Shown here in pieces: positions 33,301 to 64,000 of a DNA stretch of 64,000 nt. Position 1 is the stretch's first letter, and each line of letters begins with the position of its first letter. Under the pieces are notes generated by a model. The model was not told where the DNA came from, did no database searches, and saw nothing but the letters and a program-made list of their open reading frames with translations. Source of the stretch: Apostichopus japonicus (taxonomy: Eukaryota; Echinodermata; Holothuroidea; Aspidochirotida; Stichopodidae); the NCBI RefSeq assembly GCF_037975245.1, contig NC_092578.1:16064821-16128820 (forward strand), in the 5' to 3' direction. The position numbers were made by a program, and so were the translations under genes.

Positions 33301-33576
33301 CATCATTATCATTATCATCATTATCATCATTATCATCATTATCATCATTATCATCATTATTATCATTATCATGATTATTATCATGATTATGATCATGATT
33401 ATATTATTTATATTAATATTATGATTTTTATGACTTTTTTTGTCTCGTTCCAGTTGAAAAACGAGAAAGACATACGAAGCGAAGACGATGATTCTGATTC
33501 CGAAGAGGGAAGTGAAGAAGAAAGAAAAGTGGAAGCAAATGGAGCCAATCATCAGAAAATACCAAATGGTTCTTAA
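5471..33576 (+). CDS. CERS: ceramide synthase (CERS5/6-like), complete, 8 coding exons
   Basis: Joins a fatty acyl-CoA to a sphingoid base to make (dihydro)ceramide in the ER membrane. Coding exons: 5471-5640, 10710-10946, 18260-18368, 18976-19068, 27298-27426, 28325-28431, 32474-32630, 33454-33576; all introns are GT-AG and phases agree, giving 374 codons (human CERS 380-390). Domains in order: N-glycosylation site NVS at residue 18, first membrane segment about 38-56, Hox-like domain about 66-127 with WSTREVEKWFRKRR, then the TLC/Lag1 domain with H211-H212 and HDIAD (238-242), and an acidic serine-rich tail. The start at 5471 is chosen because it yields the conserved N-terminus and has A at -3 and G at +4. 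The sequence SWQIIGPFPAW in the last lumenal loop resembles CERS5/6, suggesting but not proving C16 preference. Confidence 0.96.
7441..7570 (+). repeat. degenerate short tandem repeat of AGTGCACTTTATTTCT
   Basis: About six imperfect copies of a 15-22 base unit, with variants such as AGTACACTTTATTTCT and AGTGCATTTTACTTCT. Confidence 0.5.
9968..10334 (-). mobile_element. TTAA-type miniature element, family 1, copy A
   Basis: TTAA at both ends (9968-9971 and 10331-10334). Inverted termini run AGGGTGTGAAGACTCG and CGAGTCTTCAATGCCT. The interior matches the four other copies in this window, including CATTCGAAACTAGGTCAGAT (reverse strand) and the GATCGATGGT block. TTAA duplication is typical of piggyBac-class insertion. 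No coding capacity. Confidence 0.75.
10710..10946 (+). CDS. CERS: CERS coding exon 2 (Hox-like domain)
   Basis: Completes Arg57 and encodes residues 58-135 plus two bases of Cys136. Starts FIARPLG after a TTGCAG acceptor. Carries the Hox-like domain with the helix-3-like WFRKRRFQQHK stretch. Donor GTGAGT. Confidence 0.96.
13870..14400 (+). repeat. tandem triplication, unit about 171-186 bp
   Basis: The phrase ATGGCTCAGTCCT recurs at 13901, 14072 and 14258. Each copy continues through CAAGGTCTCTGGTC, ACCCCTGATTTACAACAT and GTGGTGGGTATTAC. The spacing is 171 then 186 bases. Copies are diverged, so this is not an assembly echo. Confidence 0.8.
14945..15010 (+). repeat. retroelement-tail-like motif with GATCCT/AGGATT hairpin, copy 1
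   Basis: CTGAAGAAGATCCTGCTAGG followed by ATTGAAACGTCAGGCCAAC. A second copy lies on the minus strand at 38715-38765. The GAAACGTCAGGCC type of ending is common next to LINE or Penelope-like elements; that origin is inference. Confidence 0.5.
17783..18107. mobile_element. hAT-like miniature element, 325 bp
   Basis: The left end CAGGGACATAGCCA is mirrored by TGGCTACGTTTCCTG at the right end. The flanking octamers are TTGCCCAT (17775-17782) and CTGCCCAT (18108-18115), a 7/8 target duplication. A poly-G run follows the left end. Non-coding. Confidence 0.65.
18260..18368 (+). CDS. CERS: CERS coding exon 3
   Basis: Completes Cys136 and encodes 36 residues beginning WRFGYYSFLFAYSATN and containing QEKWFWNMSLYW. 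This is the CWRF.Y segment at the start of the TLC domain, with a membrane helix. It is too short to appear as a long open frame. Donor GTAAGT. Confidence 0.95.
18369..18975 (+). other. CERS intron 3
   Basis: 607 bases with poly-C tracts near 18430 and 18670. Nothing coding seen. Confidence 0.5.
18976..19068 (+). CDS. CERS: CERS coding exon 4
   Basis: Residues 173-203, in phase 0 at both ends. Contains YFFELSFYISLMLCAPRDVK, matching the ELSFYWSL...DVKRK block of the family; Ile replaces the usual Trp. Acceptor TTGCAG, donor GTATGG (a weaker +5 position). Confidence 0.95.
20195..20562 (+). mobile_element. TTAA-type miniature element, family 1, copy B
   Basis: TTAA at 20195-20198 and 20559-20562. 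Ends AGGCATTGAAGACTCGCC and GCGAGTCTTCACACCCT. The best-preserved copy, 368 bp with both TTAA tetramers. Confidence 0.78.
22042..22281. mobile_element. TTAA-type miniature element, family 2, with ~45-bp inverted repeats
   Basis: TTAA at 22042-22045 and 22278-22281. The termini begin GCCCGGGTCACATCTGCGCG and are mirrored at the right end for about 45 bases with few mismatches, so the single strand could form a long hairpin. 240 bp, non-coding. CCC-type ends and the TTAA target point to the piggyBac class. Confidence 0.75.
22716..22783 (+). repeat. tRNA-derived SINE head (fragment)
   Basis: AGTTGCTAGAGTGC resembles an A-box and GGTTCAAATTT a B-box, spaced as in a tRNA gene. There is no convincing cloverleaf, so it is read as a SINE or tRNA pseudogene rather than a working tRNA. 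It is interrupted at 22786 by the next element. Confidence 0.5.
22786..23392. mobile_element. TTAA-type element, family 3, 607 bp
   Basis: TTAA at 22786-22789 and 23389-23392. Terminal inverted repeat AGCAGCATTTTGC, mirrored as GCAAAATGCTGCT. Inserted directly after the SINE-like piece. No long reading frame inside. Confidence 0.7.
24322..24352 (+). repeat. poly-A run of about 31 bases
   Basis: An uninterrupted A tract, either a slippage product or the tail of an unrecognised retroposon. Confidence 0.85.
25166..25302 (+). repeat. G-rich 13-bp minisatellite
   Basis: About ten units of AGGAGGGGGAGGT, with AGAT variants. The strand is almost entirely purine, with runs of five G at fixed spacing, so G-quadruplex or triplex folding is likely in vitro. 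Confidence 0.9.
27298..27426 (+). CDS. CERS: CERS coding exon 5 (Lag1 motif, catalytic residues)
   Basis: Residues 204-246, phase 0 at both ends. Begins DFWPMFCHH and ends VIHDIADVFLE. The two adjacent histidines and the HD..D group are the conserved Lag1 residues needed for activity in studied ceramide synthases, so the enzyme looks intact. Confidence 0.96.
27427..28324 (+). other. CERS intron 5
   Basis: 898 bases, no repeat of note and no gene seen. Confidence 0.5.
28325..28431 (+). CDS. CERS: CERS coding exon 6
   Basis: Residues 247-281 plus two bases of Trp282. Begins SAKAFNYAKW, the family's (E)xAKxxNYAK signature, followed by a hydrophobic helix ending CRIVIFPFW. Donor GTAAGA. Confidence 0.95.
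28622..28974 (-). mobile_element. TTAA-type miniature element, family 1, copy C
   Basis: TTAA at 28622-28625 and 28971-28974. Ends AGGCATTGAAGACTCGC and GCGAGTCTTCAATGCCT. Same orientation as copy A, 353 bp. Confidence 0.75.
30237..31013. repeat. AT-rich minisatellite, about 780 bp
   Basis: Built from TTTATATATTTTATGTG/A and TTTTACATATTTTATATAA words, with a higher-order 300-base repeat (the block at 30411 recurs at 30711). The composition is nearly free of C and G. The long apparent proteins rich in Y, I, F and L in several frames are artefacts of this array. Confidence 0.92.
31826..31996. mobile_element. small element with TACACTCTT inverted ends
   Basis: TACACTCTTGGAGAG at the left is mirrored by CTAAGAGTGTA at the right. 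The interior has two related halves (GGTTCCAAATACATGACAA and GGTTCCAAATACGTGACAA). CACTCTTAGAAAAA-type ends occur in several DNA transposon groups; class undecided. Confidence 0.45.
32474..32630 (+). CDS. CERS: CERS coding exon 7 (acyl-specificity loop and last helix)
   Basis: Completes Trp282 and encodes residues 283-334. VIHSSMVLSWQIIGPFPAW corresponds to the lumenal loop reported to set acyl-chain preference. The last membrane helix follows (FFFNGLLSIMMALNLYWFYY). Acceptor CTCAAG, donor GTAAGA. Confidence 0.95.
32631..33453 (+). other. CERS intron 7
   Basis: Ends in the ATT/ATC microsatellite and a T-rich tract just before exon 8. No gene seen. Confidence 0.5.
33237..33424 (+). repeat. 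ATT/ATC trinucleotide microsatellite
   Basis: Tandem ATT and ATC triplets with ATTATC alternation, ending about 30 bases before the CERS exon 8 acceptor. The antisense poly-Met/Ile reading is meaningless. Confidence 0.92.
33454..33576 (+). CDS. CERS: CERS coding exon 8 (acidic C-terminal tail)
   Basis: Residues 335-374 and the TAA stop. Contains RSEDDDSDSEEGSEEE, a casein-kinase-2-type acidic serine cluster like the cytosolic phosphorylated tail of mammalian CERS. The acceptor TTCCAG follows a T-rich tract directly downstream of the ATC/ATT microsatellite. Confidence 0.95.
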   Translation: MKNEKDIRSEDDDSDSEEGSEEERKVEANGANHQKIPNGS

Positions 33577-46385: not shown

Positions 46386-46613
46386 TTAGTGTTGAATTAT
46401 TCCACGGTATCCTTCGCTGCTTCTGATGTCCTCTTCCAAGCTGAAGTCATAGAGATACTTATCCAGATCCAAGGGTTCAAGTTGAGCTACTGGGGAGTTA
46501 TGGCTGGGATTCTGAAGGTTCACTATAACTTGAAGTCGAGGATGAAGGGCAAACGGTATATCGGCAGCAGGATGGGAGCCACAACCGGGTTGGGTATTTC
46601 TGTCAGTTGACCC
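46386..46613 (-). CDS. UMAD1: UMAD1 coding exon 2 (UMA domain and stop)
   Basis: 75 codons plus TAA, starting GSTDRNTQPGCGSHP after a TTATTGACAG acceptor. It carries PFALHPRL and YLYDFSLEED, the two blocks of the UMA domain. The plus-strand frame over the same bases is a shadow. Confidence 0.87.
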   Translation of the reverse strand, partial: GSTDRNTQPGCGSHPAADIPFALHPRLQVIVNLQNPSHNSPVAQLEPLDLDKYLYDFSLEEDIRSSEGYRGIIQH

Positions 46614-47933
46614 CTGTCAATAAATGAAACACTTGGTTATCCAGGGATGAGCTTGGGGTAAACAAAAAATCACGGAACTTTGCAAAAATTGCGGTATAGG
46701 CTCCAGTTTGCGTATGCTACAGTGTGTTAGGATAATAGTTTTTGTCCCCGAGGTAGAAAAGAAATCACGGATATTCCACGAATTCGCGGAAAAAGCTCAT
46801 GCCTGATTATCACTGCCAGATATTACGTTTAAATGTTTTCTTTTGGAATTTCTGGTCGTCATATTATTAAAAATTGCTTTTACAGTCCTCTTAAATGAAA
46901 CATGCCCTTTTCCTTTGTGAAACTACAAGTGCTTTCATTGGTTAATTGAACAAATATTTGTGGTATGAAAATGCAAAGAGTGGGGAGTGAAGAACTTTGT
47001 GGAGCATTGAGAGTTGCGATTTTGATCTGATGAGGCCAACCCTCGATAAACTTCCTGAAAAGACTATTAATTTTTGATGCATTCCAAACCACCAAATATC
47101 GCTGATAGACAATAGGGCACTTGTACTGTAGTCTACCAACAATCTTACCTTTTGTTTGCACCAGAGAGAGTACTTTTTGTTATGACAAAAATTGAAAGAA
47201 AAAACAAACGGTCACTTTTCATATCATTAGATACGGCACTTCCGATTAAAGGCATTGAAGACCCGCCCCAAACCGCGTGCCGCGCTCTGAAAAAGTTAAC
47301 TTTCTGTTGCTTGCAAATAACGTTTTCTTCTTGTCGCTACAAAATGCAGACAGTACCTTGTATCTTTTATCTAGACCTGAGATGTCCACGCTGCTATGTA
47401 CACTGTGTTGTGGGTATTGACCGTAGATGTATGTATGACGGTACACTAGGGTCTAATTACCGACGGTACCAAGCTGTGTGTGTATTTTCTGGGATCGATG
47501 GTGGTGTCTAACACTTCTGTTATACCTCATTCGAAACTAGATCAGATTACGGCATGAGACGTTTCTTTGTGGGTGAGTCTTCACACCCTTGAATGAAATG
47601 GGGGAACCCTTTAAAAGTTGTTTTTCCACAAAAGTAGGGGAACGGCCCGATGTAACTTACCACATCTTGGTAGGATGGAGGCGGTGGAGAGGCGGATTTC
47701 TGATGCACTTCGATGTACTTGGGGGACGGATCCGTACCGACCTCCGTCCTCTCCGATGCAGTGGAACCGATCACGAGATAATCGTCTTCTTCCTTGGTCT
47801 GGGAGAGATGTTCTGGAATGGGCTGGGATGCGCCACTACCCATGGTCGGCACTGCGGTGGTCTTGTTGGGTGGTTGGTTTGATTTCAAAGGTAAGAAGTT
47901 CCTTAGGTTGGAGAAGACTGAACTGGAGAGCAT
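46386..47933 (-). CDS. UMAD1: UMAD1-like UMA-domain protein (ESCRT-I associated), complete, 2 coding exons
   Basis: Small protein predicted to join ESCRT-I through its UMA domain and so act in multivesicular-body sorting. Coding exons 47661-47933 and 46386-46613 (GT-AG, phase 0 at the junction) give 166 codons; human UMAD1 is about 137. The N-terminal half has EEDDYLVIGSTASER, comparable to the EADGFVLLG segment of human UMAD1, and ends PPPPSYQDV, which includes a PPxY motif. The C-terminal half carries the UMA domain about residues 108-155, with DIPFALHPRLQVI and LDLDKYLYDFSLEEDI. The identity is inferred from these motifs and supported by the RPA3 neighbour. The intron contains a transposon copy. 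An additional small exon cannot be excluded. Confidence 0.85.
46614..47660 (-). other. UMAD1 intron
   Basis: 1047 bases, a third of it TTAA family 1 copy D. A 93-codon minus frame at 46880-47161 has no start context or recognised motif and is left unassigned. Confidence 0.6.
47246..47592 (+). mobile_element. TTAA-type miniature element, family 1, copy D
   Basis: TTAA at 47246-47249; the right-hand tetramer is mutated to TTGA. Ends AGGCATTGAAGACCCGCC and GTGAGTCTTCACACCCT. Lies in the UMAD1 intron 68 bases from exon 1. Confidence 0.72.
47661..47933 (-). CDS. UMAD1: UMAD1 coding exon 1
   Basis: 91 codons from ATG at 47931-47933 to GTG, then donor GTAAGT. Proline-rich end SASPPPPSYQDV. An upstream out-of-frame ATG (ATGCACACA) lies 35 bases before the start. 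The exon sits between two direct copies of TTAA family 1 (47246-47592 and 48288-48648). Confidence 0.85.
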
Positions 47934-48287
47934 GATGGACGATGTGGCATCTCTATCGTTGTGTGCATCTCAGTGAGAGAGGAATCGACTAGAGTAAATC
48001 ATAATGGAGAGATATGACATAAAGTTAAGACATGGAAAATGACTTTTCACTCGTTATACATGATGAGGTTATTAACTCGCACACTGGCAGTCATATTTGC
48101 TTCATCAACGAATGTTTTACCTCCAACCGATAGGATTACTTTTCAAATTGATAGAAAAAGCCACAAGACATTGTTTAAAGCAGTGGCAATATGCATATAA
48201 GTAGACTTACAATTACTTTTCTATGGAAAGAAAACATCATCTTTTACCTCAAAACTGACAGAGTTTTCATACTTTTGGTTAAGTATA

Positions 48288-48648
48288 TTAAAGGCATTGA
48301 AGATTCGCCCCAAACAGCGTGCGGCCATCTGAACATTATGTTGTTGCAAGTGAAGTTTTCTTTGTGTCGCTACAAAATGCAGACAGTAATGAAACGTGAT
48401 ACCTTGTTATCTTTAGCTGGACCTGAGATGTCTATCACTGTATCATGTGTACAACACTGTGCTGTGGGTATTGACTGCAGCTGTATGTACTGACTGTACA
48501 CTAGTGTCTAATTACCGACAGTAGCAAGCTGTGTGTGTGTATTTTCTGGGATCGATGGTGTCTAATACTTCTGTTACACCTCATTCGAAACTAGGTCAGA
48601 TTACCGGCATTAGACGTTTCTTTTTGCGCGAGTCTTCACACCCTTTAA
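48288..48648 (+). mobile_element. TTAA-type miniature element, family 1, copy E
   Basis: TTAA at 48288-48291 and 48645-48648. Ends AGGCATTGAAGATTCGCC and GCGAGTCTTCACACCCT. Same orientation as copy D, about 1.04 kb from it, on the 5' side of UMAD1. Confidence 0.75.
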
Positions 48649-51124
48649 AGAAGTCAAGGCACACATAATCTATATTGGAATAAGCAGGGTTAATCTCAGG
48701 AAGTGGCCTGGGCTCTTTCTTATGAATTATTTTGGGACTAACATACGGTACTTTCATGCAAAACAAACTTAATTTTACTCAAAGCCAAAACATAGTGAAT
48801 TACTTGACACTTTCATGAATATCTATTCTGATGTTAATTTGGTTGCTCAAATATTCATGACTGCAATTGGTGGTCAAGGGTCAAGTAAAACCTGATGCTT
48901 GCATATTCATGAGAGGAATATTTCTACTGTCTGTACATGTTGTATATAGTTACTCTGTGCCTTTAGAGAAGCACATGTTTTTGTTTTGGAAGGATACCAC
49001 TATACACTACCAAGGAGAGCCAAATCTTGATTATTTCACTACACTGGGGCAAGTTACATTTTTCTTTCTACTTATCATAAGTAATTTTTTGGCTATATAT
49101 ACAAAAATAGTCATATTGGTTTTCAGATCTTACTCTAGTCTTAGTTAGTTACTACAGTAGTTACTGTAGGGGCATTAACTAGACTTAGGCTTACAGAACT
49201 GTATGTTATTTTCTAACAAGGAGCTGAATTAAAATTAAGTTACTAAACTGCTATTTTATAAGATATACAGTTCTAGTAGAATGAGCCCAATAAGTCCCCT
49301 GCTTTGGGCCTAAGTTCCACTTGGTAGGTTTTGCTTCATAACAAGCTTACTCTTGAAGCAAGAGTTTGAAAGGGTCAGCCAGGCCAAGATAGTGTAATTG
49401 AGTCAGCCCTGTTATATGGTGGTATTTGGTAACTTTGCATGTACCCTAACTTTGTGTTCTGTGTTAAATATATGTAGCTACACTGTTAGATACTGCAGTT
49501 ACTATTTGAAAGTTTAACTGTGACCACTGTCTTCAAATACAGTTCTGAAGTACGCACAAAACCTTATGAAAACCACTAACATTGCTACAGTGAAAAAAGG
49601 ACAAATCAATTTTGTATTCTGAAGTATTTTCACGCAATATTGTGCTCACTTATTGGAATTATACAGTAAACTTCAATGCATATATCTGAAGTTAGGGAAA
49701 TTTGGCCTTCTTTTGAGCAGTTTGAATAAGCGCTCTTTACAAGTATAATTTTATCTGTTTCTGGCGTAAACGGATCAAAGCAAAGATGAAATCACATCGT
49801 TGAAGGACAGAACTAAACCACAGTGGGACATTGAAAGATTGTCAATACCACTGTTCATTACAGGAAATAATTTTGCCCTCAACATCCAGAAGTTACTGTA
49901 TTACCATCCTACCAGGATTTGAAATCAGGGTAAGTCTACAACATTATTATACTTACTCTAAAGAAAATGGTGGAAACATGTGGCATAGTTTTTGCACATG
50001 AATTCCTTACTTTTTACACATCTTTTAATGTATTGCTATTTCAGTAGTAATTTTGGTATCTACCGTAACTTGTCTCCGCCTCTACCAAGAATTCCTGGAT
50101 CTACTCATTACAGAGCAAAAGGAGACAAATTCATTATTAAAGCATGAAGCTTTATTACAGATTGATCAGCCTAAGCCAAAGCTTTCTTTGTGCAGCCTAA
50201 GGTAATCTAACATTCCTGATACCTGCACAAATGCAAATCTTGAACTAACAAGTGGTATATATTACACAGGTCATATAATAAGAATAGCCTTCCTATCGAT
50301 GTATAGCCTTCATTATAAATAGGATATGCACCTGCTACTCCATACTGTAAGTTTCTGTGTAGGCCTAGGTTTTGACTAAGTATTTCCAATATGAATAAAA
50401 GTTACCAAAGAAACGCAATGACATTACATTTACCATGCTTATGTTACTTGCAACTTACACTCAATTTAGATTCAGCTGGCCAATACCTTCGCACATGAGG
50501 CTGCCTTGTAAGATAAGACTAGGCTATTACTAGGTTAAAGGAATAAGGCTGTAGGCTACGGCTGAGAAGTTTCCAAATTCCTGATCCCAAATTGACATTA
50601 CGAGACACATAAAAAACGTTTGTTAATCAGCGATGCATTCGTCAATGTCAACAATGAAAACGTAAACAGATTAACAACACCAGCATTGTCGTCACTAGTC
50701 TACATTGAGCGGCAGAGAGTAAGGATACGTACAAGTCTATGATCATAAATTTTTGTGGTTATCACAAAGTTTCAGTACAGTACAAAGGTTACCAAGGCCA
50801 GATGACGTTACTAACAAGGGAATTCCCGAACACAGAAATTACACTAGTCTGTGAGTGTCATGCGCACTGAACTAAAATCACGTTTCAGTGGTCATCATAG
50901 AAATTGAACAGAGTGCTCATGTGATCGAATTATTAGTTATCATACACAGATAACGTCTGACATATGTAAGAAAAAGCCTTTGAAGTTTTTCGAAATTTGA
51001 TGTATGTAATTAATGAAAACTTAGGAAATTATTAACCTAGATGTGACATATAAGTTTTAATTGAATATAAAGGATATTATCTTACTTTCATAACAGCTAG
51101 GCTCTTCCACACTCGTGCGAGTTA

Positions 51125-51135
51125 TTTGGCGGGAA
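51125..51135 (+). promoter_or_regulatory. E2F-type site TTTGGCGGGAA
   Basis: Matches the TTTSGCGC/G-type E2F/DP consensus with the flanking AA. It lies 1.8 kb upstream of the RPA3 ATG, before the 5' UTR acceptor at 52850. Replication genes are common E2F targets. Match only, no occupancy evidence. Confidence 0.45.
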
Positions 51136-51582
51136 GGGAATCAAACTCAGCGGTTGAGATTTATTCAATACAGTGTCCAGGCCTTGCGAGAATATTGAAG
51201 AAACCTATAAAAAGTGTATTCCAGCGGTGCTTCATTGATCAGAAAAATATTCAGTCCAAAATCGGTACAAGTTAGGTGCAGGAGCCAGTCGTTTATTACT
51301 TTGCGCTTGTCAAACTTGATAACTGACTATTTCCAAACTGATATATAGCCGAGAGACCACTAGTAATAGTATTATTATTAACGTAGTAGCAGTAGGCTAG
51401 TACTAGTAGTAGAACTTAGTACTGGAGTAACTGAGTTCGGTTATGCTAGTAAATATTAATATTAAGGCCTAACCTAACCAATAGGCCAAGGAAAAATGTT
51501 AGACTATTGCATATGCAACTAGGCAACTAGGCTGTCGCCTTTGGGTTATACCTTTTGTCCATTTTCCTGTGATGCAACCACC

Positions 51583-51594
51583 CAATATGGCGGC
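51583..51594 (+). promoter_or_regulatory. YY1-type site CAATATGGCGGC
   Basis: Matches the CAAnATGGCGGC YY1 promoter-type consensus. Such sites sit at or just after transcription starts in many housekeeping genes, so the RPA3 (or UMAD1) start may be near. Confidence 0.45.
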
Positions 51595-52249
51595 CGTGGC
51601 AGGTGAAAAAGGCATAAATTTTCTGTGATTTTGTGACAATTAACCCAGTAGGAACTCTGTGATTTCTCAAATTTTTGCATTTTCATTGCTAAAAAAATTA
51701 GCACGGCTTTGCCATCGCAAAGGCCAATATGCAACCTTGAGTCAGACTGAACAACATGAAAATGATTGAGATCAATATTCTTAAGGGGGACAAATTGCAG
51801 CTACTATTTCATTTAAATTGGTAGGTCATCAATAAAACACTCAATATTGCTGTTTTGCGGGACCTTTGACCGGGACCATTGAATTTGACAAATGTCAAGT
51901 TCGTAATTGTCAGCCTTTGAAAGCAATCTGCATGAGTACCCTTGCTTATTTACGTAACCAAAAACAATTTGAATCCAGTTAGTGAATGTATCACATAATT
52001 TTTATATTGTTTCAAGGATGATCATGTTCTGTTAATTCCCCATGTTTTAATTGGGAACGCATGTAAACCCAGACTCTTGACTATATAAGCACTACTGGCA
52101 CCAAAGCTATAGTAAATAAGTGACAACTTAATTGATTATCGTTACTTGTCACTCTGCCCAGTTATATCTTGAACAGCATTTGAATTCCACGAGACCGAAG
52201 GTCCGTGTGACCGAATTTCCGCGAGTCGATGGTCCGCGAGACCGATGGT

Positions 52250-52472
52250 CTATGGATAGTCCATCGATCGTAACTAGACTTTTTCATTAGAGGGGCTTAA
52301 GAGGGGGTCAAAGAGATTGACAAGGGGGCTATTAACATTGTTTAAAATAAGGTATCGCTATATCAAATTATTAAGTTATATTCTATTCTAAAATTTCATT
52401 TGGGGCAGCAGGGGGGCGAGACTTTGAGAGCGGGGGCTTTTGCCCCTTGCAACCCCCCTGGTTACGCGACTG
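52250..52472. mobile_element. possible degenerate hAT-like miniature element
   Basis: The right end CCCCCCTGGTTACGCGACTG is a common hAT terminus. The left end (ATCGTAACTAGAC) is only a loose mirror and no target duplication was found. A ~20-base repeat of GAGACCGATGGTC words precedes it (52190-52250). Confidence 0.4.
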
Positions 52473-52866
52473 ATGGAGGCCTGGTATCAATGCAAGCCGC
52501 CCCAGCCCCTTGTGCAAGTCACTGGTATCCACTATGAAAAGAACTGGCTGTAAATTCTCTTTAATTACGCGCTTTATCAACGTAACATTACTGGTAGTAA
52601 TATTTGTCTTACCAGTTTTATAGGCCTAGTAATAGTTTCGGTCTCGCGGGGCCTAGTAATAGTTATGTTCTCGTGACCTGTAACCCTTTCCTGCAAATGC
52701 ACAACATGTTGAAATGCAAAAAGGTAATGGTGGTTTCTAAATCAATTTTCACCCAATTGTGTATAAATTTAAACCATCAATGAGTTACATATATATACCA
52801 TATGCTTTCAAATATTTAAGTTTTTTTTCATCTCTTTCTTTCATCAACAGATTAGAAGACAGTTTT

Positions 52867-52893
52867 ATGCTAACAAAATCCACTTTGTTATAA
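52867..52893 (+). promoter_or_regulatory. uORF in the RPA3 5' leader
   Basis: ATG at 52867 opens eight codons (MLTKSTLL) and stops at TAA 52891-52893, 50 bases before the RPA3 start. Its context (T at -3) is weak, whereas the main ATG has G at -3 and +4. It is in the same exon if the acceptor at 52841-52850 is used. Confidence 0.45.
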
Positions 52894-52943
52894 AACAGGC
52901 TTTTGTTTCTTTTGCAAAAAAAACATTACAAGGAACAAAAGTG

Positions 52944-53033
52944 ATGGATTCATCAGCAAAGCCCAGGATCAACGGTGCACTCCTCAGTAACTATAAAGGA
53001 CAAGTCGTTTGTGCATTGGGCAAATTAAAAGTG
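52944..53033 (+). CDS. RPA3: RPA3 coding exon 1
   Basis: 30 codons, MDSSAKPRINGALL to GKLKV, donor GTAAGC. The exon begins at 52851 after a TCAACAG acceptor, so 93 bases are 5' UTR. Confidence 0.95.
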
Positions 53034-55517
53034 GTAAGCACTATGACACTGTTATGTACAGTACTATATAGTATTATATAGTATTTATATAGTATTTATA
53101 GTATATTATATATATATCACACAATTTATGTAAAATAAATTGTAGTAGAACTTCTGTATTTTCTAATATAGAATATGAATCATAATCGGATATATTGTTA
53201 ATTGGCCTGATAGGGCAGTTATATTTTACGACATTGAGCAGCCACTTGGGCATGTGTGAAAAAGTCCAATGGCTTAATATTACTTACACTTCACATGGGA
53301 TGGCTATAAAATTAACAGTTTTTAGACCATTTGAGATTTCTACTAAACAATTTGGAAGACCATTTCAGATGGAAGAAACTGTTGACCTGTTCCTAGATCG
53401 AAAGGATGGAACCCCATTGTACTTTAGCCTAGCCATTGCTCGAAGTCATGACTAACTACCAGCTGTTAGGTTTCATGACTTCATAGCTTCAGTAATGCCA
53501 CTGTATTTATTCACTAGACAATAGCACTCGGTCTGGTTTTTATCCAGAGCAGAGTTTGAACTTGAGGTGGTTGAACATGTTACCAGCCTCATAGCCTCAA
53601 GATTCAAGACTAGTTTCTGTGAATTTTGAAAGAAAGCAAATTATGTCATCCTAACAAGTAACTGGCAGTTCAAATTTAATTTATTGGTCAAATTATAATG
53701 TTAAATATTATAAACAGTTATATTGGGAGGGGGGATCTAGTTTTGGGTAAATTTTATTTTGGTTTATAATAATTACACGCAGGTGAAAGGGTGCAATTAA
53801 TATGCATTTCAAATTTTAGAAGGTATGTTTTTTTTTCTTTTTACTTTTACAAACTATGGAACAAATTCATGAGTTACTTAACAGTTTTCAGGAAATTCAA
53901 TTGAGCTGGGGAAAACAAGTTCAATAACAAGTTTGTGACAAAAGAAGACTAAATAGTTCAATATGATATTACTCCATGACTCAGTGGGTCCTATATAAAT
54001 ATAACTTTTGTTTTCAAACATTTTAGGACAACGGATCATCCTTTTCTATGACGCTTTGCGATGGCACGGATGTAGAGGTCTTTTTGGACAAGAAGGTAGG
54101 TGATACCAAGAAGGGGAGATTGTCTAGACTTGGGGGGGGGGGTGGGGAGAGGATATGGGGAGGGGAATGATGTTGTGGATTAAACCCAAAAGGGAAAAGC
54201 AAACTTCATGTTCTCTTTCCTGGTCTTGTTACTCCACTTCTTTGAAGTGACTGAACCATAAAAATGTTTTGAAGAGCACTCTAGAATCAATTTTCCATCT
54301 TTGTTTCCTCTGTGACCCGTTTGTAGGCAGTGTGGTGATATATGGTTACTTTCTGTGTTCCACTGATAAAACGCTGTAGTTTGTAACCACTATTTCGAAT
54401 GCAATGTTAATACACGCAGCCTCTGTGAAAATGAGTGGAATCCTAGTAGTGAAAGAGGGAAGCATTACTTTTGTATTTTGAGAATAATTTTTTCAAACAT
54501 AATTTCACCTTTTTTTGTGGAATTATACAGTGTACACTAATACATACATGTGTGATGTTTTGGGAAATTAATTTTGAGCTTTTTTTTTGACTGAGAGACC
54601 TTTAAGAAGTATCCATCTATTTCATTCTGGCAGACCCATTCATGACATCACATAGTTGCAAGATAGGCCCAAAACACAGAGCACAATCAGAAAGATAGGG
54701 AGAGATTTAAGGAACATTTGTGTCCTTAGCATCACTGACTAACCATAGCACATATCCTAAATTTATGTGAATATTACTGTGTGTTATGTCTCATTCAGTT
54801 TGAACCGATACGTATATATTTCCCTTTTCTGTAGCCTGAAAAAGAGTTGGAGGGGATGATTGAGGTGGTAGGAGAGGTCGGGAGTAACCATCATCAAATA
54901 CAGGCCCTCGTTCATCGGATTCTCGGCGATGTCGAATTTGGTGAGTGGCAGTAGTGGTATGGAAAAGCTACTGTACCTTAACAGAATTGCTGTTCTCTTG
55001 TTAAGCAAAACTCCAACTAGTGCTTCTTCTGATAGAGAAAAGTTAAGTCATGTTCACCTTATGTAGCATAAAAGTCCTTATTGACTATATTGTTTCAAAA
55101 AGAATGTATAACCAAATTTGACATCACCCCTTTCCTAACCCTCTCCCCCCCCCCTCCCTCCATAAGTTTATCAACCTCTGATTTTGTCGTTTTAAGGCAT
55201 TCATTGCCGAAACTGACTGATTCTGGTTACCAGAGAGACAAAATTGATGATTTTGAAATATTTACCGTTGTACTGTACAGTTTTCTCGTTTGACATGTCA
55301 CCCTCTTGTGAGAAAGGTCGATAAAAATCTCAAGTCGCCATAGCAGATTGCTACTCAAGATCACCCCACCATCTGATAAATTATGTTTGTTTATATTTTG
55401 TTTCCAGATGTGAATCTGTACAATGAAGCTGTCAACTTGTCACATCAGTTTCCAGAGTTCTATAAAGTTGGTATTTCAGACGCAGACAGCCAATCCCAAG
55501 ATACCATGGACGCCTGA
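52944..55517 (+). CDS. RPA3: replication protein A 14-kDa subunit, complete, 4 coding exons
   Basis: Smallest subunit of the nuclear single-strand DNA binding heterotrimer RPA, needed for assembly of the trimer in replication, repair and recombination. Coding exons 52944-53033, 54027-54095, 54835-54940 and 55408-55517 give 124 codons (human 121). It is a single OB fold throughout. Matching blocks: PRINGALLSNYKGQVVCALG, SMTLCDGTDVEV, ELEGMIEVVGEV and DVNLYNEAVNLSHQFPEFY, all of which parallel human RPA3 in order. Start chosen at MDSSAKPRIN because it precedes the conserved PRIN directly and has a good context. A 5' UTR acceptor at 52850 implies at least one upstream non-coding exon. Head to head with UMAD1, tail to tail with MIOS. 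Confidence 0.96.
53034..54834 (+). other. RPA3 introns 1 and 2
   Basis: Intron 1 (53034-54026) holds an 86-codon plus-strand open frame at 53195-53455 that is not recognised and has no splice signals in register. Intron 2 (54096-54834) contains a G-run and sequence loosely similar to 49560-49690. Confidence 0.5.
54027..54095 (+). CDS. RPA3: RPA3 coding exon 2
   Basis: 23 codons, DNGSSFSMTLCDGTD to FLDKK, the middle strands of the OB fold (human FILSDGEGKNGTIEL region). Acceptor TTTTAG, donor GTAGGT. Phase 0 at both ends. Confidence 0.95.
54835..54940 (+). CDS. RPA3: RPA3 coding exon 3
   Basis: 35 codons plus one base. PEKELEGMIEVVGEV matches the EEISGIVEVVGRV block. Acceptor CTGTAG, donor GTGAGT. 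Confidence 0.95.
55408..55517 (+). CDS. RPA3: RPA3 coding exon 4
   Basis: Completes Asp and encodes VNLYNEAVNLSHQFPEFYKV, the C-terminal trimerisation helix, then a short polar tail ending DTMDA and TGA. Confidence 0.95.
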
Positions 55518-58500
55518 TTCCCTTCAAAAACCAGTCTGAAAAGTCATCCTCGTGACGAGGAGTAAATTTTGCCGAAACTGATAGTCGGCATATTTGGACT
55601 GTGGAAGACACACAGTGTTTACATGCCGGACTACGATAAAGCCTTGAAATAGCCACGAGAAACTTGGTCATTCGACGACCAGCTATTGTAGAGTAGTAAT
55701 AATATAGTCACCAAGTTTTACAATGTCTACACAGCAAGCATTTGTCCATCAACCGAATTATTTTGTTGTACTCTGAATTTATAGTGATATATTGTCACAT
55801 TACAGCTCTTCTACCAGACTTGAAGGCTAATGTATATGGAATTTTGCAGCAACAGGCAAGGAAATATGAATAGTTGCTTATGTTCACTGTACCATCTAGC
55901 TTGGAATGCAGTTTCTTGCAGTCCTTAAGTCATCCCTGCAACATTTTGTGTGTGAGCAGGATTAGCGGTTCTGACATTGATGGAAGTGTACTATGCTTTC
56001 AATCGAGCCCGTTGGATCCTGACAATTCTATATGCAGGTTTCATTTCGTGCACTCACTTTCGATTTTGTGAATGGTTTTGTAATATATGGTGTAAGTTCA
56101 TCGATAATTTTCAATCAATGATGGCTGTAGATAAATAATGCAGAAGTTAACATTTTAGAGCACTAATTGCTTCAGTTTTTTGTAAAGCTGGGAAAGGGAG
56201 TGGGGTTGAGGAAAGGGGTTTAGAGGGGGTAAGGCAGAATTGTAGTCTGGATGCGTAGTCTGAATGAAATAGATGCTTGGAGTCTGATTGAAACATGTTG
56301 CCATGTGTACGACTCCATTGATGGGCTCCATATTACATAGCTCCTGGTATTTAGTAGGACATATTTCTAGTAGGACATGCAGAGCTATTCTGTGGCTCTT
56401 TGACATTCTCCATTCTCTTGAGAAAGTCTGTTTTCTGTAAGCTGACAGAACAGCTAGAGGTATGGATGAAAAAGTTCATCTTCAGAACTTAGTGATTTCA
56501 CTAAATTTAAATCCATTTCTGGAAATGGGCCACATTCTGTTTCAAAACAGAAATTTTGCACAGAATTTATTTACCCGCATCATTATACCCAATGTAAAAA
56601 TTCAATGTAAGGGTAGAAATGAGATCATCTTTCGTATAACGATTGCAATTGAGCCTGAAAGGTTGGGTCATGTGACTTGCATGTTAGTCAGTGGTTGCTA
56701 TGCAGCATATTATATCCCAGCATGCAGTTTCCCCCCAGATCATTCATAATTCATGATGTAAATATATAATGTACTGCTTGCATGGAAATACAAGGAGACA
56801 TACTCTCATTGTTTGTAATCCATTTATTTTTGTGTGACCACATCTTTATGAAATTTTTAATTTGTGAGATTTAATACATATTTACATACCCTAATAGAAT
56901 AAAATTCCCAAGAGAGTTGTGGTTTCTTTAAGTATGAAAAGACAAAGTCACAGAACATTACTATACTAGGTTATACTTTCATTTAAATTTAATAACTTGT
57001 ACTGAAATATTGATATTATATACTGCTTCAGCTTTTCAGTTTTATAGATACTTTCACCAATTTCATGAGAGTGTTTTAAGCAATATTGTAATACTGCCAC
57101 CTATCCATACATACAATTTTTGCACACTGGTAAACCTGAGCCAAGTTTTGAGGTCAGTTTGTATACCTGTGTACCTCTGTTTATGAAGGACAACCTACAC
57201 TTGTTCTGCAGGGATGCACCCAGGATTTCATAAAGTAGAGGGTTTGGCCTTGGGGGTAGGATAGGGAAGGGGTGGAATCTAACTCTCATGTTGATTCTGA
57301 GGTATATATAAACCATAAATTATATCAATTGGTAGGTACCAAGGCTTGGCTGCACTAATAACAACCTTTCAATTATTTTGGAGAGGGGGCAGGGTTTGTA
57401 CAACAACGTTGTTTAACTCACGTCACACCTCTGCTGACCCCCAAGTAGCCCTTGAAATATTCTGTTATTGCACACAGTAATCCGTTACAAATTGATATCC
57501 AAAAGTGAGCCTCAAACCAAGATTTTTGATGACATAATTCACAGGAATATCAAACGTTATTTAATATTTCAGATCCTTTTGGTGGGTCCAACAAAAATGT
57601 TAAAAGAAATTCAATAGCAGTACTCTTGTATTTGTTAATATAGTTGCATGACAGATTTAATCCCATTTAAAATACAGAAATCTTTTACAACCGATACAAT
57701 AGGTAACTTCCAAAATGAAAATGGGAATATACAATGGCTCCAATCTTTGTATAGAAGCTTTCTCTTGCAGACTTCGTCTCAGTTCATTTTCCTTCAATAC
57801 GATATGAGTCGAGGTAGTTTTTATATCCTATGTGAGGAATAATACAAAATTACCCATAACCGAAAGATGTAAATATTTTAAGAAACTTTTATACTCTTTT
57901 GAGTTACACAATTCAGAGCAAAAAGCACTTAACCACATGACACTTGACAATAGGAGGAACACTTGAAGCACACATTCATTGAAATAGGTCTATGGACACT
58001 GAACAGCTTCATCCAACCTCACTGAGAAACATAACCGATGTTAAAGTCAGCTGAATGCAAAGATAACGTCAATCCAAAGTTTGAACTTTTTTTGCCTCTA
58101 AAATTTGACGAAGGACCGCTCTCCTTAAACCTCTCGCATTGCTAGTCTGGTCGAGATAAACCTCCTGGGAATGAGTTTTGTCACTGCAGGAATAAACCGT
58201 TGTATCCCGTAGCATTTGCTTATGTCTGGTCAAGGCAATACTCTGTGACATCGGTCAACCAGTGTCTGGTGTCCGCAGAACGAAGGAAATTGGTCATAAA
58301 CAGAAACAAATTTGGAAGTGAAGCTAGAAGACGATTCTGTCCATCAAGCAAGTTCAGAGCCGTCTTAATTTTAGTGTTTGCTACGTCCAGTCAAGGCAAC
58401 ACATTTTATCTGTTCTATTCCCTCTGTTTTCCAGCAGTTGAAAGCCATCGATATTTACATTTCATGATTGCAAAGTTTCCGGTGATTGTTTTTCGTTTGT

Positions 58501-58625
58501 GTTCCTCCATCTCATGGTTACTGCAATTCCCAAGAAGCCGATGGAACATCTCTTTTCTTGTCTGGTTGTATTAGTTCCGTTACAATGCAAAGAGTTAGGA
58601 TAACACGGCTAACCCCCCCCCCCCT
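55518..58625. other. convergent 3' region of RPA3 and MIOS
   Basis: RPA3 3' UTR with AATAAA at 56898-56903, and MIOS 3' UTR on the other strand with AATAAA (read on minus) at 56823-56828. If both are used the two messages would overlap by about 75-100 bases. Frames at 58069-58251 (minus) and 58200-58574 (plus) fall in this UTR and are not recognised. Confidence 0.45.
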
Positions 58626-58722
58626 TCAAGTGTCCATGGAGTCTAGTGCGGGAAACGCTCCCACCGTGTCTAGCTGCATACACTTACATACACATCCAGT
58701 GACAGGACATTCGGAATGTGTG
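58626..58722 (-). CDS. MIOS: MIOS last exon
   Basis: Completes Ser and encodes THSECPVTGCVCKCMQLD, a short tail ending LDSMDT and TGA. Acceptor TTTTGCAG. Confidence 0.96.
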
Positions 58723-61700
58723 CTGCAAAAGAAAAGGCGGGAAAAAAAGAAAAAAACTGGTCAAAAATCCTGGAGAGACTTAGGCTGAGCACGAAAAGCT
58801 CCTGAATAAAGAGCAGGGTAAATATAAGCGTTTACATTTTGAAAAGCTCATTTTCCCGTAGATAGTTATAAAAGATTGAAACCACTTTGATTTTTAAAAA
58901 TAAAAAAGCTGCTCAACTTTTTGAGGATTTGTTTAGCAATTCGGTCACATCTGCATATGGAGGGAGGGGGAGTGGGGGGGGGGAGAGGGGAGCATCAAGA
59001 TTGGGGCACCAATTCCCTCTCCCTCCACATGACCCCCTATGATGCTGCCACTTTATGTAATACAAACAGGCTATCACTACCGATTCTACTGTTCCTACAA
59101 ATCTGTTGAGCTGTCACATGACAGTACTGTGTGTAAAAAAAAACATGTCCTGAATGGGTTGCCTATCGTACGATCGCCACTTACCTGAACCAATCCCGAA
59201 GGTGACAGCCATGTCCACCATGTCTACACGACTGACACCAGGTGAACCATACATCAAAGCTGGCCTTCACCGCATTATCTCCTGCAAGAAAATAATAATA
59301 GGGCATTTATATAGTGCCATACATGAAACGATATTCTATGGCGCTTTACAAGGAAAAACTAAAACATACAAATAAACAGAAACAGCAACAAGAGAGAAAA
59401 GAGAAAAAATTGGATTACTTGAAGGCCTTATTAAAGAGAACTGTCTTCAGACCTTTTTTTGAAAAAGAGAAATGTGGATTGGTCAACAACCAAAATAAGC
59501 AGACAAAACAGAAAAAGGAGCACTTTGATTCAAATTGTATTATACCTGTACTGTACCAAACGAAGGAAACGACCAAATAATCATTTCCGGTCTGTGATGA
59601 AATTTGGAAATGGGTGACTTGATTTTCTTATTCCATTATCTAATTATTAAAACAACTTGTTTGTGCCAGCTTGGTTGCCATGGTGTTGAAGAGGAAGATT
59701 TTGCCTTCGCTTGGTTATTTGAGAATGTGGTTGGATGTCGGAGTAAACTCTCAACCATCAGGTGTAAGGGGAAAGGGGGTGGGGGGATTAAATGGCAGAC
59801 TCGGGATAAGGAAAGGGAGAGGTAATCTAAGGAGAAGAAATATGTAGGCTGGAGTGAGATGGTAGAATCTCCCCCCACTCCCCCCAGAGAGTATTTATCC
59901 GGGGGATGTTCTAGTGAAAAGCTTGGGATTTATTCACCTCTATAGTAACTGGTACATTTAAGACCTCTACAAGTGATACTTTCTGCTGTCCCTTTGTTAT
60001 TTCATACAAAACTATATCCTCTGCTTTTCAGCATTAAGTAGTAAATACACAACTAGCCTAATGTATGATCTCATCGAAGATGCTTTACACTTGTTAAAGA
60101 CATCTCTCGGGCAAATATACTCTAGGAGGGACATTCACAATTGCTACAAAGGTAATCTCCTACAAATATGACATGAAATAATGAAATATGAATTGCATTC
60201 CTTATCCTAAGTATGACCTAAGCTTAACTTGACATGAATAAACTTAACTAAATACTCAAAAATATACAAATATCCCTCATGAACAAAGGCAGGTGACCCT
60301 CTTACCTCCCCCTGTACTGCTCTGCAATGCCTTGCTTGATTTATTCCTTTGAGGTAAAAGCTTTGAGGTTCCTGAAGTAGTGCCCATATTCATTTGACAT
60401 AGAGAGCACCGGGGGAGTGGCTTCCTGCAAACATAACAGGCCTTTGGCTGAAACAGGATTAAAGGGAAAAATTTAAGATGAATAAAAAAAATGGTTGCAT
60501 TGCTTTAGACAAATTTTAATTATCTTCAAAATCAAATTAAATATACATTACAGGTTTTTCGAAATAAGAAAGTAAAACCTGCATTATCAAGACCTTCTTA
60601 TTCAATAATGCAGTACATTTTGTCTATGCTATACTTTATATTGTGTGAGTCATACTATGATCGGGGTAATACGATACCAAACAGCACTTTACATGGGTAT
60701 TGGGACTTATTAGATTTCACCTGTACGGGTAAGACCCTCGGGTCGCTACGTGCTTCGGACAACCCAAGGTTTTGGTGTAATCAGTACCTCACATTCGATT
60801 AATCGGTAACGAACATTTGATTGATCGGTACCGCACATTCGATTGATAGGTACCGCACATTTGTTTGATCGGTACGGTACATTTGTTTCACGGTATCGCA
60901 CATTCGATCGATCTGTATCGCATATTCGTTTGATCGATACCGAACATTCGATTGATCAGTAACGCACATTCGATTGATCGGTACCGCACATTTGATTGAT
61001 CGGTACCGCACATTCAATTGATCGGAAAGAAAACGAACGAGTCACCTTCAACGTGGACTGGCCCCGGCCACCGAACCTCATGTGCGAGCCTCCGCTTTGG
61101 ATTGATCTCGAGGAGAGGAGAGAGGGAGAGACTGGACTGGAGCAGAAATGACAATGAACGTACGTCTGTTCTGGGACTTTCTTACGAGAGTCGATGGCAT
61201 GGAGAAACATGTCAAATTTGGCTCTGAGGAAGAAGAAAAAACAGTAGACGACAATGTTATTGTGAATAGTCGTATGCATTCTTCCGGTTCATTTTTCGGA
61301 AAGGAAAAATGGAATTTCCAGGAGTTCAAGGTGGAGCTTAACCTTCTTTCATCATATGCTTACTGATTAATAATTGTAACATTTCCTGTGACTTGTGGGG
61401 GTGGGGGGAAGGGGGGGATTGATTTTGGAGGGTACCCACACTAAAATACTTGTAACGATAAGTTGCTTGTTATATGCCCTCGTAAGATGAGAATTGTAGA
61501 AGAACTGTTTTGTTAAGTTTGCAATTAACCTTGCTGTGCTCAAATTCTCAAATGGCCAAATGGCTTAACCACCATCAAAAAAGTTTTTCCACTTTATTTA
61601 TTGCAACTTTGTCATAGCTACCTAACTATCCAGACATTTTTTTATATATTTTATTCTGTAAATAAACCTATACGTTTGGGTAAGACTGAATAAGAGAATA

Positions 61701-64000
61701 TTTCAAGAGAGGAATCAAGATGTTTGTTAACCAGAGGCGTAGGAGCCCAATTTGATTTGGGGGGGCTGTAACGACTTGCCTGAAAAAAATATAACAAAAT
61801 TTTTCGCACGCTCCACGCACGTCCAACATGTTAAGGTGCATATCGTATAGGCATGCATCGGTTATTACATTGCATGCCAATAACATACGATCATTTTCCG
61901 TGTTATTACCATTCCATATTGGTTATAATTATTGGGGAAGTCGTTACAATACTAATGATCATAATAATATAAGTTTAACCATTGAAAAACACATTGTTAA
62001 ATTATTTGCCCGAAAAATTCTCAGCATATTGCCCGCATTTTCACAAACATTTTTGGTTGGGGGGACTGCAGCCCCCTTGCCTCCTACGCCTATGATGTTA
62101 ACCAAGGGCGGCGGAAGCACTTTTAATCTGGGGGGGCATCGAGATCTCTTACTGAAATATCGCTGACCTAATAAGGTGATCAAGAGTACAATTTTTATGT
62201 AGAAAAAGGGCACATTTTTAACCTGAGGAAAAGTGGGGGGCACGTGCCCCCCCGGTTCCACCGCCCTTAATGTTTACCCTACCTCTGATGCCAGAGTCTC
62301 CACGTATCGAGTAGTCTCCGATATATTTGCATCCATTGCTCCACTTTCTTGTCCCTGATGAGTTCTGATGCATGCAACACCACACAGCTGACCGATTGCA
62401 CATCGCATGTCTAAAAACATGGCATAAAAAATAATAATAATAAAAAAATAATAGTAATAATAATAATAAAAAATAAAAAAATAAAATAAAAAATAAAAAA
62501 ATCAAATTTTAGGATAGCATAATTGGGTCACCTAAGAGCAATTGTACTATAAGACCATTTTCCTAAATCTGTTTGGTTTTACATATTTAATATGTGCAGC
62601 ATCAGGTACACTTACAGGAATGAAAAAAAATAAAATATGAAGATAAAAACACTGTACAACACATTGGACCTACCACACTTTTACAGCAGATGTACAGGCC
62701 TAGCCTACTCTACACATAACAATCGAACCTGACGTTTATCACTGTCATCAACTTTTGAAGATATTGATGATCTTATTTCATATTTTTTAGGCATTTAAAC
62801 TTTTATGAAATTGTAGAAATGATTGATGTTTTTTTTTTATCTTTTTTTGTGTGCTTGCTGCTTTTGAGAGATGTTTCTTGGAAAATGTACATGTTTGAAC
62901 TTGAAGCAAACAAGTTTGATTCCACAGATGCACAACTATCATAAAAGTTTTAAAAACATTTTCAACTTTAAAAGCACGATGCAGCAAAATACGAATACAC
63001 CCATGTTTATTGGTAGTTTATAAGCTTCATAAATAGTGAAAGTTTTAACTCTAACTTGTCGCAGGTCAAAGAGGAGAATGAAAATTGAAAAATAAAGAAA
63101 AAAAACAAAACATATTTTGCATCAATGTGCATCTATGATGTTACACTTGCTTGCATACAAAGTTCCTTTTCTGTACAACAATTTCAACCAGAAATATCTG
63201 GAGAATGCTATGCATGAATTCTAGGCATATTTTAACCATGACTTTGTTTCCTGGTTTGCAAGACAAAAATAAATTTACAAATGAACTGTTTCGTTTAAAC
63301 TTTCACAAACTGGTTATAATGAATAGGCTATCAAATTATGATATTTAATTATTTATTTACATATATAGTTTTTGTTGCACTCACATGATCCAGATAACTC
63401 TGCAGTAGTTCCAAGCCACTACCTTTAGTCAAGCCGGTGACCAGCACACCTGCCAGATTACCATTTCGTATGATGCTAGTGGATAGCTGTTCTAAATATT
63501 CACTCAAATGTTGGTCGTTCAGATAAAGGCAGGCAAAGCCTATTCGGTCTTCAATTTGCATCTCAGCCTCTTTCTATAGAGAGAAAAAAAAAAAATGAAA
63601 ATTGTTTATGTAAACATCCTTTACAAATGAAAACACAAGAAAGGTCACCACAGAAATATAAAGTGTTTAAGAAAGACGTTGTATTTAAATATAGCAAATA
63701 TCAGCCTTGGCAGAAACCTACCAAAACTGATATTTAAAGTCTTGAGAAAGGTCTGTAACTTGTAAGGAGCAATATCAAACTAAAGCCTAAACCTACCACA
63801 ATTTGCTAGTAGAGATACTTAGCCTAGCTTACTCTGCACAACAGAAAACATTACTAAAACTTTCATCATCATTAACTATTTGGGGCTAAATACTGGTTAA
63901 TTGTGCAATTTTGGTGGAAAAGAAAAGAGGTTAAGAAAGTTAAGCTGTACAAGTTCGGAAAAAACATATAATCTTTATTGTGGTAAATAACTTACAAGAA
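58626..64000 (-). CDS. MIOS: GATOR2 complex subunit MIOS (C-terminal 276 codons), partial at right edge
   Basis: MIOS is part of GATOR2, which opposes GATOR1 and so promotes amino-acid-dependent mTORC1 activation at the lysosome. Minus-strand exons: 63385-63573, 62283-62410, 61046-61223, 60306-60447, 59185-59281 and 58626-58722, all GT-AG with agreeing phases. They encode an alpha-solenoid end (GVLVTGLTKGSGLELLQSYL, LLDTWRLWHQR) followed by the C-terminal zinc-binding region: CHFC, CYVCRKPLPRCSLCQMNMG, WFTWCQSCRHGGHGCHLRDW and CPVTGCVCKCMQLD. The order and motifs match human MIOS (875 residues); the WD40 propeller and most of the solenoid lie beyond the right edge. All zinc ligands seen in the human motif are kept. 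Confidence 0.96.
59185..59281 (-). CDS. MIOS: MIOS exon (WCxxCRHGGH block)
   Basis: 97 bases: DNAVKASFDVWFTWCQSCRH then GGHGCHLRDWF. This is the most conserved part of the MIOS RING-like end, shared in form with WDR24 and WDR59. Confidence 0.96.
60306..60447 (-). CDS. MIOS: MIOS exon (zinc-binding core)
   Basis: 47 codons plus one base: PKACYVCRKPLPRCSLCQMN, then a variable SK-rich loop ending SSTGG. Acceptor GTTTCAG, donor GTAAGA-like (GTAAG). Confidence 0.95.
60783..61023. repeat. 22-bp minisatellite, 11 units, next to a MIOS donor
   Basis: Unit GGTACCGCACATTTGATTGATC with point variants, eleven units over 241 bases (one is 21 bases). It ends about 22 bases from the donor of exon 61046-61223. 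Confidence 0.9.
61046..61223 (-). CDS. MIOS: MIOS exon (first zinc-binding CxxC)
   Basis: Completes Arg and encodes 59 codons, AKFDMFLHAIDSRKK to GGRGQSTLK, with CHFC. Donor GTGACT is weak at +4 to +6. The intron sequence after the donor stays open into the 22-bp array. Confidence 0.93.
61734..62095. mobile_element. hAT-like miniature element, ~362 bp
   Basis: The ends AGGCGTAGGAG (61735) and CTCCTACGCCT (62081-62091) are mirror images. TGTTAACCA occurs just outside both ends (61725-61733 and 62096-62104), a target duplication of 8-9 bases. Poly-G follows the left end. Confidence 0.68.
62103..62269. mobile_element. hAT-like miniature element, 167 bp, abutting the previous one
   Basis: The ends CAAGGGCGGCGGAAGC and GGTTCCACCGCCCTTA are mirrored. 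Flanks ATGTTAAC (62095-62102) and ATGTTTAC (62270-62277) match at 7 of 8. Contains GGGGGGCACGTGCCCCCC, a perfect palindrome. Ends 7 bases before the donor of exon 62283-62410. Confidence 0.68.
62283..62410 (-). CDS. MIOS: MIOS exon
   Basis: 42 codons plus two bases, starting TCDVQSVSCVVLHASEL and ending RRLLDTWRLWHQ. Acceptor TTTTAG next to an A-rich (minus T-rich) microsatellite, donor GTAGGG. Confidence 0.95.
62425..62505. repeat. A-rich AAT/AAAAT microsatellite
   Basis: AATAATAAT and AAAATAAAAA runs. On the minus strand it precedes the acceptor of MIOS exon 62283-62410. The poly-F/L/Y frame read from it is an artefact. Confidence 0.85.
63385..63573 (-). CDS. MIOS: MIOS exon (alpha-solenoid end)
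   Basis: 63 codons in phase 0 at both ends, KEAEMQIEDRIGFACLYLND through NLAGVLVTGLTKGSGLELL to LDH. Acceptor CTATAG, donor GTGAGT. The human counterpart has NLEGILLTGLTKDGVDLMES. Confidence 0.95.
63574..63987 (-). other. MIOS intron at right edge
   Basis: No exon recognised; AT-rich sequence. Confidence 0.5.
63996..64000 (-). CDS. MIOS: possible 3' edge of the next upstream MIOS exon
   Basis: A GTAAGTTA donor on the minus strand (63988-63995) directly follows bases TTCTT. Ending in CTT it would join in phase 0 with KEAE. Only five bases are visible. Confidence 0.35.

Follow-up and report, generated by a model that had tools for sequence, protein, structure and literature searches.

Why should three genes of unrelated function lie side by side in Apostichopus japonicus in the arrangement that they have in human? 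UMAD1 is a subunit of ESCRT-I and an abscission factor, RPA3 is the small subunit of RPA, the complex that binds single-stranded DNA, and MIOS is a subunit of GATOR2 with a link to mTORC1; these functions are unrelated, and the three genes form no single functional unit. Human 7p21.3, which we take to carry MIOS (+), RPA3 (-) and UMAD1 (+), mirrors the order described here, so that the two arrangements are the same. In this study, we analyzed a 64-kb stretch of DNA without a single N (the window) and asked whether this order is inherited from a common ancestor and what may have kept it.

If the triplet is ancestral, the neighbourhood of human RPA3 and UMAD1, where GWAS has placed a locus for rheumatoid arthritis lung disease (PMC7509520, available text), dates to before vertebrates. 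Comparison between species could then also test which of the genes is served by the control elements of that locus, and UMAD1 would be placed outside vertebrates. In the available text of one paper UMAD1 is described as 'conserved across vertebrates' (PMC10445733). UMAD1 outside vertebrates was not found among the literature matches listed, which came from searches mostly aimed elsewhere, and it may well be known.

Results

UMAD1, RPA3 and MIOS are neighbours

UMAD1 (46386-47933, minus strand), RPA3 (52944-55517, plus strand) and, for its C-terminal part, MIOS (58626-63573, minus strand) read as spliced open genes, with canonical GT-AG at nine of the nine introns of the three models (Table 1). 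Since it carries spliced genes, the window reads as nuclear DNA of an animal. UMAD1 and RPA3 are divergent, head to head, with their start codons 5010 bp apart. RPA3 and MIOS are convergent, tail to tail, with 3.1 kb between the stop codons, and the three genes span about 18 kb up to the end of the window. From the gene models and profile matches, the initial annotation had the identities, order and strands of the genes correct, UMAD1 being less certain than the other two; the adjacency in the window is real and confirmed. The two intergenic gaps are overlapped by 48 ORFs of at least 50 aa, of which 32 were compared with PDB and gave no match; most of the other 16 lie at 57.3-58.8 kb. ARAGORN found no tRNA in the window and Rfam no match at the gathering score. 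Single-protein queries of bacterial/archaeal and viral collections, which detect close relatives only, returned no relatives.

Table 1. Coordinates of the features discussed in the window
Feature	Position	Strand	Basis
Ceramide synthase, homeobox-like exon	near 10.70-10.95 kb	+	PDB CERS6, E 2.6e-18
Ceramide synthase, collinear piece	near 18.94-19.13 kb	+	PDB CERS6, weak, E 0.5
Ceramide synthase, collinear piece	near 27.26-27.45 kb	+	PDB CERS6, E 2.3e-6
Ceramide synthase, collinear piece	near 32.41-32.62 kb	+	PDB CERS6, E 4.9e-5
UMAD1 last coding exon, UMA domain (DIPF...YDFSLE)	46386..46613	-	acceptor AG, stop; UMA profile; motif spacing
UMAD1 first coding exon found (MLSSS...PPPPSYQDV)	47661..47933	-	donor GT; phase-0 splice to 46613
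CpG-rich patch, candidate promoter region	50600..51400		CpG o/e 0.98
Perfect E2F consensus TTTGGCGGGAA, the only one in the window	51125..51135	+	pattern search
RPA3 coding exon 1	52944..53033	+	gene model, Pfam, PDB
RPA3 coding exon 2	54027..54095	+	gene model, Pfam, PDB
RPA3 coding exon 3	54835..54940	+	gene model, Pfam, PDB
RPA3 coding exon 4 with stop	55408..55517	+	gene model, Pfam, PDB
MIOS last coding exon with stop	58626..58722	-	gene model, PDB
MIOS coding exon, zinc-binding region (WFTWC..CRHGGH)	59185..59281	-	gene model, PDB
MIOS coding exon (CRKPLPRC)	60306..60447	-	gene model, PDB
MIOS coding exon	61046..61223	-	gene model, PDB
MIOS coding exon	62283..62410	-	gene model, PDB
MIOS coding exon, end of alpha-solenoid	63385..63573	-	gene model, PDB

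The four-exon RPA3 model encodes 124 aa and matches Pfam PF08661 (Rep_fac-A_3) over the full domain length (positions 1-105 of 105; E 2.2e-20) as well as the human RPA14 chains in PDB (E 1.6e-12). The last six exons of MIOS encode its C-terminal 276 aa, which match Pfam PF17034 (E 9.9e-21) and, in PDB, residues 610-867 of the 875 of human MIOS (E 1.1e-70). By these two matches, the zinc-ribbon region that follows the alpha-solenoid is present. The gene runs past position 64000 and off the window, and the N-terminal WD40 propeller of MIOS would fall there. Judged against a curated profile and solved structures, the identities of RPA3 and MIOS can both be regarded as secure. One MIOS intron holds a CpG-rich tandem repeat of a 22-bp unit in 11 copies (60780-61025).

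The probable UMAD1 gene

UMA domains were reportedly defined by de Souza and Aravind in 2010. The two-exon UMAD1 model encodes a protein of 166 aa whose UMA-like region is C-terminal, and position 46386, at which the initial annotation began, is the final base of its stop codon. The protein has no match in Pfam, NCBIfam (a prokaryote library) or PDB, but with a home-made UMA profile, built from four human UMA-domain sequences, its second exon ranks first among the 2190 ORFs of the window (E 0.014). The score of 12.6 bits was reached in none of 100 dinucleotide-shuffled windows, the best of which gave 11.6. When UMAD1 was left out of the profile, the same exon still came first among the 2190 ORFs (E 0.17), with a score that 23 of 100 such shuffles attained. 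One shuffled window in 100 attained the phmmer score of the human UMAD1 sequence, and the local alignment of the whole predicted protein with human UMAD1 was equalled by 4 of 5000 shuffled proteins. For exon 1 alone (EEDDYLVIGST against EADGFVLLGDT) the similarity is not significant, since 1593 of 5000 shuffles reach it.

In the available text of a study of human UMAD1, V89-P90-F91, Y125, F127 and E130 were mutated, with loss of ESCRT-I binding when VPF was changed (PMC10445733). The mutated residues are found at the same numbers in the human sequence used here. The predicted protein keeps five of these six ESCRT-I-binding positions, without gaps and at the human spacing, with isoleucine in place of V89 (I-P-F, Y, F, E). 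The pattern [VI]PF-x33-YxFxxE, which was fixed post hoc with the match already seen, has a single occurrence over all six frames and none in 1000 mononucleotide shuffles. Taken together, these comparisons suggest that the gene is very probably UMAD1. Near the end of its first coding exon (47670-47687, minus strand) lies PPPPSY, which contains PPxY (PPSY), a ligand of WW domains; human UMAD1 presumably has no such PPPPSY motif.

The flank beyond UMAD1 and the repeats

Past UMAD1, the nearest gene recognised is a ceramide synthase (CERS6-like) on the plus strand at 10696-33573, convergent with UMAD1; the ORF at 33196-33573 contains what reads as its acidic C-terminus. When 1501-46500 was scanned with Pfam in six frames, at E up to 0.5, nothing matched that would make GLCCI1 or ICA1 the left neighbour. 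It returned four matches, all under the curated cut-offs: Homeodomain (0.0048), Polysacc_lyase_14 (0.071), WH_PARP12 (0.22) and Med31 (0.38). The homeodomain-like match turned out to belong to the ceramide synthase (PDB CERS6). Because the scan overlooked the remaining exons of this gene, a gene with short exons is possible at 33.6-46.4 kb. Human 7p21 is not known to carry a ceramide synthase, so the two regions have the three genes in common as far as the window shows.

A dispersed repeat of 350-370 bp is present in five copies that are 80-92% alike (9967-10334, 20195-20562, 28622-28974, 47246-47594 and 48288-48648), one of them in the UMAD1 intron and one between UMAD1 and RPA3. A long imperfect tandem array of a 9-bp unit at 30227-31010 is open in more than one frame, with Tyr/Ile-rich readings, and is probably non-coding.

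The gap between UMAD1 and RPA3

Regulation shared by UMAD1 and RPA3 had been suggested as the force that holds the block, and the gap between them speaks on both sides. In its favor, the only perfect match to the E2F consensus in the window lies in a CpG-rich patch; against it, the start codons are 5.0 kb apart and a repeat copy lies between them. In pairs with a bidirectional, shared promoter, the two transcription starts diverge from sites no more than about 1 kb apart; the 5010 bp measured here lie between start codons rather than transcription starts. The patch at 50600-51400 is the CpG-richest part of the gap. Among the non-overlapping 800-bp segments of the 64 kb it ranks fourth, tied with the fifth: three others exceed it and one equals it. 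A TATA-like CTATAAAAA starts 69 bp downstream of the E2F consensus. The strict consensus, searched for post hoc with the site already seen, has one match against 0.03 expected, and 3 of 100 shuffles contain one. A looser E2F pattern had been one of 11 patterns tried. When the strict consensus is allowed one mismatch, four matches are present where 1.5 are expected (8 of 100 shuffles), which is no excess. Patterns for CREB, DREF, ETS, NF-Y, NRF1, SP1 and YY1 were absent from 47500-53100 in the pattern search. A second CpG peak near RPA3 (51900-52600) was rejected as a promoter, being partly tandem repeat and dropping from 0.83 to 0.61 after masking.

Linkage in human, pig and birds

The match to human 7p21.3 was borne out as regards linkage in the available text of three human studies. 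A haplotype in 7p21.3 is listed with GLCCI1, ICA1, COL28A1, MIOS, RPA3 and UMAD1 (PMC5958065), a single duplication covers COL28A1, MIOS and RPA3 (PMC5455099), and one SNP within introns of both RPA3 and UMAD1 is an RPA3 eQTL (PMC7509520). Pig chromosome 9 is alike: MIOS, RPA3, UMAD1 and GLCCI1 are named there in one excerpt (PMC10500877), and a second likewise supports the linkage (PMC7724110). In birds, UMAD1, GLCCI1 and ICA1 occur together, and RPA3 and MIOS go unnamed in the excerpts (PMC7718761, PMC10669838). As far as their available text goes, the human and pig papers give linkage alone, and order with orientation is absent from them. Among the literature matches listed, no paper named a UMAD1-RPA3-MIOS block outside mammals, and the main text of a study of echinoderm regulation, in the part available, contains neither RPA3 nor MIOS (PMC13317027).

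Discussion

The order UMAD1-RPA3-MIOS would be an ancestral gene-order block, inherited alike by this lineage and by vertebrates. Common ancestry of the order is quite likely in our judgement; the joint claim, that the gene at 46386-47933 is UMAD1 and that the block order is ancestral, is somewhat less so but still probable. As for what has kept the genes together, the 5-kb gap may contain control DNA common to UMAD1 and RPA3, for which the patch at 50600-51400 with the E2F site at 51125-51135 is the candidate. Untranslated first exons in the gap would then be spliced to the coding exons of UMAD1 and RPA3, and MIOS would be carried along as the convergent neighbour of RPA3. Such a shared element would make sense if RPA3 is under S-phase control and has a link to UMAD1, an abscission factor. 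Shared control is nevertheless a guess, which we hold to be less likely than not. The boldest form of this reading, which we think unlikely, is that UMAD1 predates vertebrates and has long been paired divergently with RPA3, both being controlled by a single element that E2F drives. Over the cell cycle this element would couple DNA replication, through RPA3, to abscission, through UMAD1, and MIOS would be a neighbour that was kept.

The ancestral order may also have been kept through inertia alone, in a genome that changes slowly and is seldom rearranged, without shared control. This account makes the same core claim as our preferred explanation and differs in the reason for retention, for which we give it a little under an even chance. 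The three functions are unrelated, the start codons of UMAD1 and RPA3 stand 5.0 kb apart and are separated by an inserted repeat copy of 370 bp (48288-48648), and the next recognised gene past UMAD1 differs from that of vertebrates, all of which inertia accommodates. However, RPA3 overlaps UMAD1 in human, and introns of both genes contain an RPA3 eQTL, which suggests entangled control at least there (PMC7509520, available text). The identity of the outermost gene bears on how much is common at all. It might encode a different UMA-domain protein, related to MVB12 or UBAP1, or a protein outside the UMA group, leaving only RPA3-MIOS common to both. The silence of Pfam, NCBIfam and PDB, the 23 of 100 shuffles that reach the profile without UMAD1, and the possibility of coding exons further upstream would fit this. 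Yet the UMA-like region is C-terminal in a protein of 166 aa, its ESCRT-I-binding residues have the spacing of human UMAD1 (0 of 1000 shuffles), and only 4 of 5000 shuffled proteins equal the alignment to human UMAD1. MVB12 carries a MABP domain, and that pattern is absent. So is the pattern of UBAP1, in which, according to excerpts, the UMA domain is residues 17-63 (PMC4007767) and a SOUBA domain is present (PMC3314968). We therefore consider another identity very unlikely.

Least probable of all, and by our estimate highly improbable, is that the genes came together independently, by convergence or chance, here and in vertebrates. The flank past UMAD1 looks unlike that of vertebrates, which would suit independent assembly. 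Against this, the order and relative orientations are the same as those that we take human to have. With about 20,000 genes in random order, we estimate that a given triplet matches by chance at about 1e-9 to 1e-10, and that some triplet in the genome does so at about 1e-5. Inheritance of the block from a common ancestor is the reading that we prefer.

Human 7p21.3 and pig chromosome 9 resemble the window in that MIOS, RPA3 and UMAD1 are linked, with what we take to be the same order and orientation. Unlike at human 7p21.3, the coding parts of RPA3 and UMAD1 in the window do not overlap, the three genes lie within about 18 kb up to the window end, and the next recognised gene past UMAD1 is a ceramide synthase where human has GLCCI1. 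Ancient bilaterian microsyntenic blocks are reportedly the subject of Irimia et al. 2012. In human, RPA3 and UMAD1 are entangled, with one SNP in the introns of both (available text of PMC7509520). Blocks of at least three genes are common in the available text of another study, in which the inferred bilaterian ancestor gained 256 new blocks, whereas shuffled genomes gave 45, 48 or 56, and co-expression is higher in dense ancient blocks (PMC8851819). As in those blocks, unrelated neighbours would here have been retained for very long. Genomic regulatory blocks, in which a developmental gene is linked to a bystander, are similar in joining unrelated genes, but UMAD1, RPA3 and MIOS include by family no developmental regulator. 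The finding is real and was read well by the initial annotation, and the linkage is of an ordinary kind; the block is best filed as a further example of a known one, ancient animal microsynteny.
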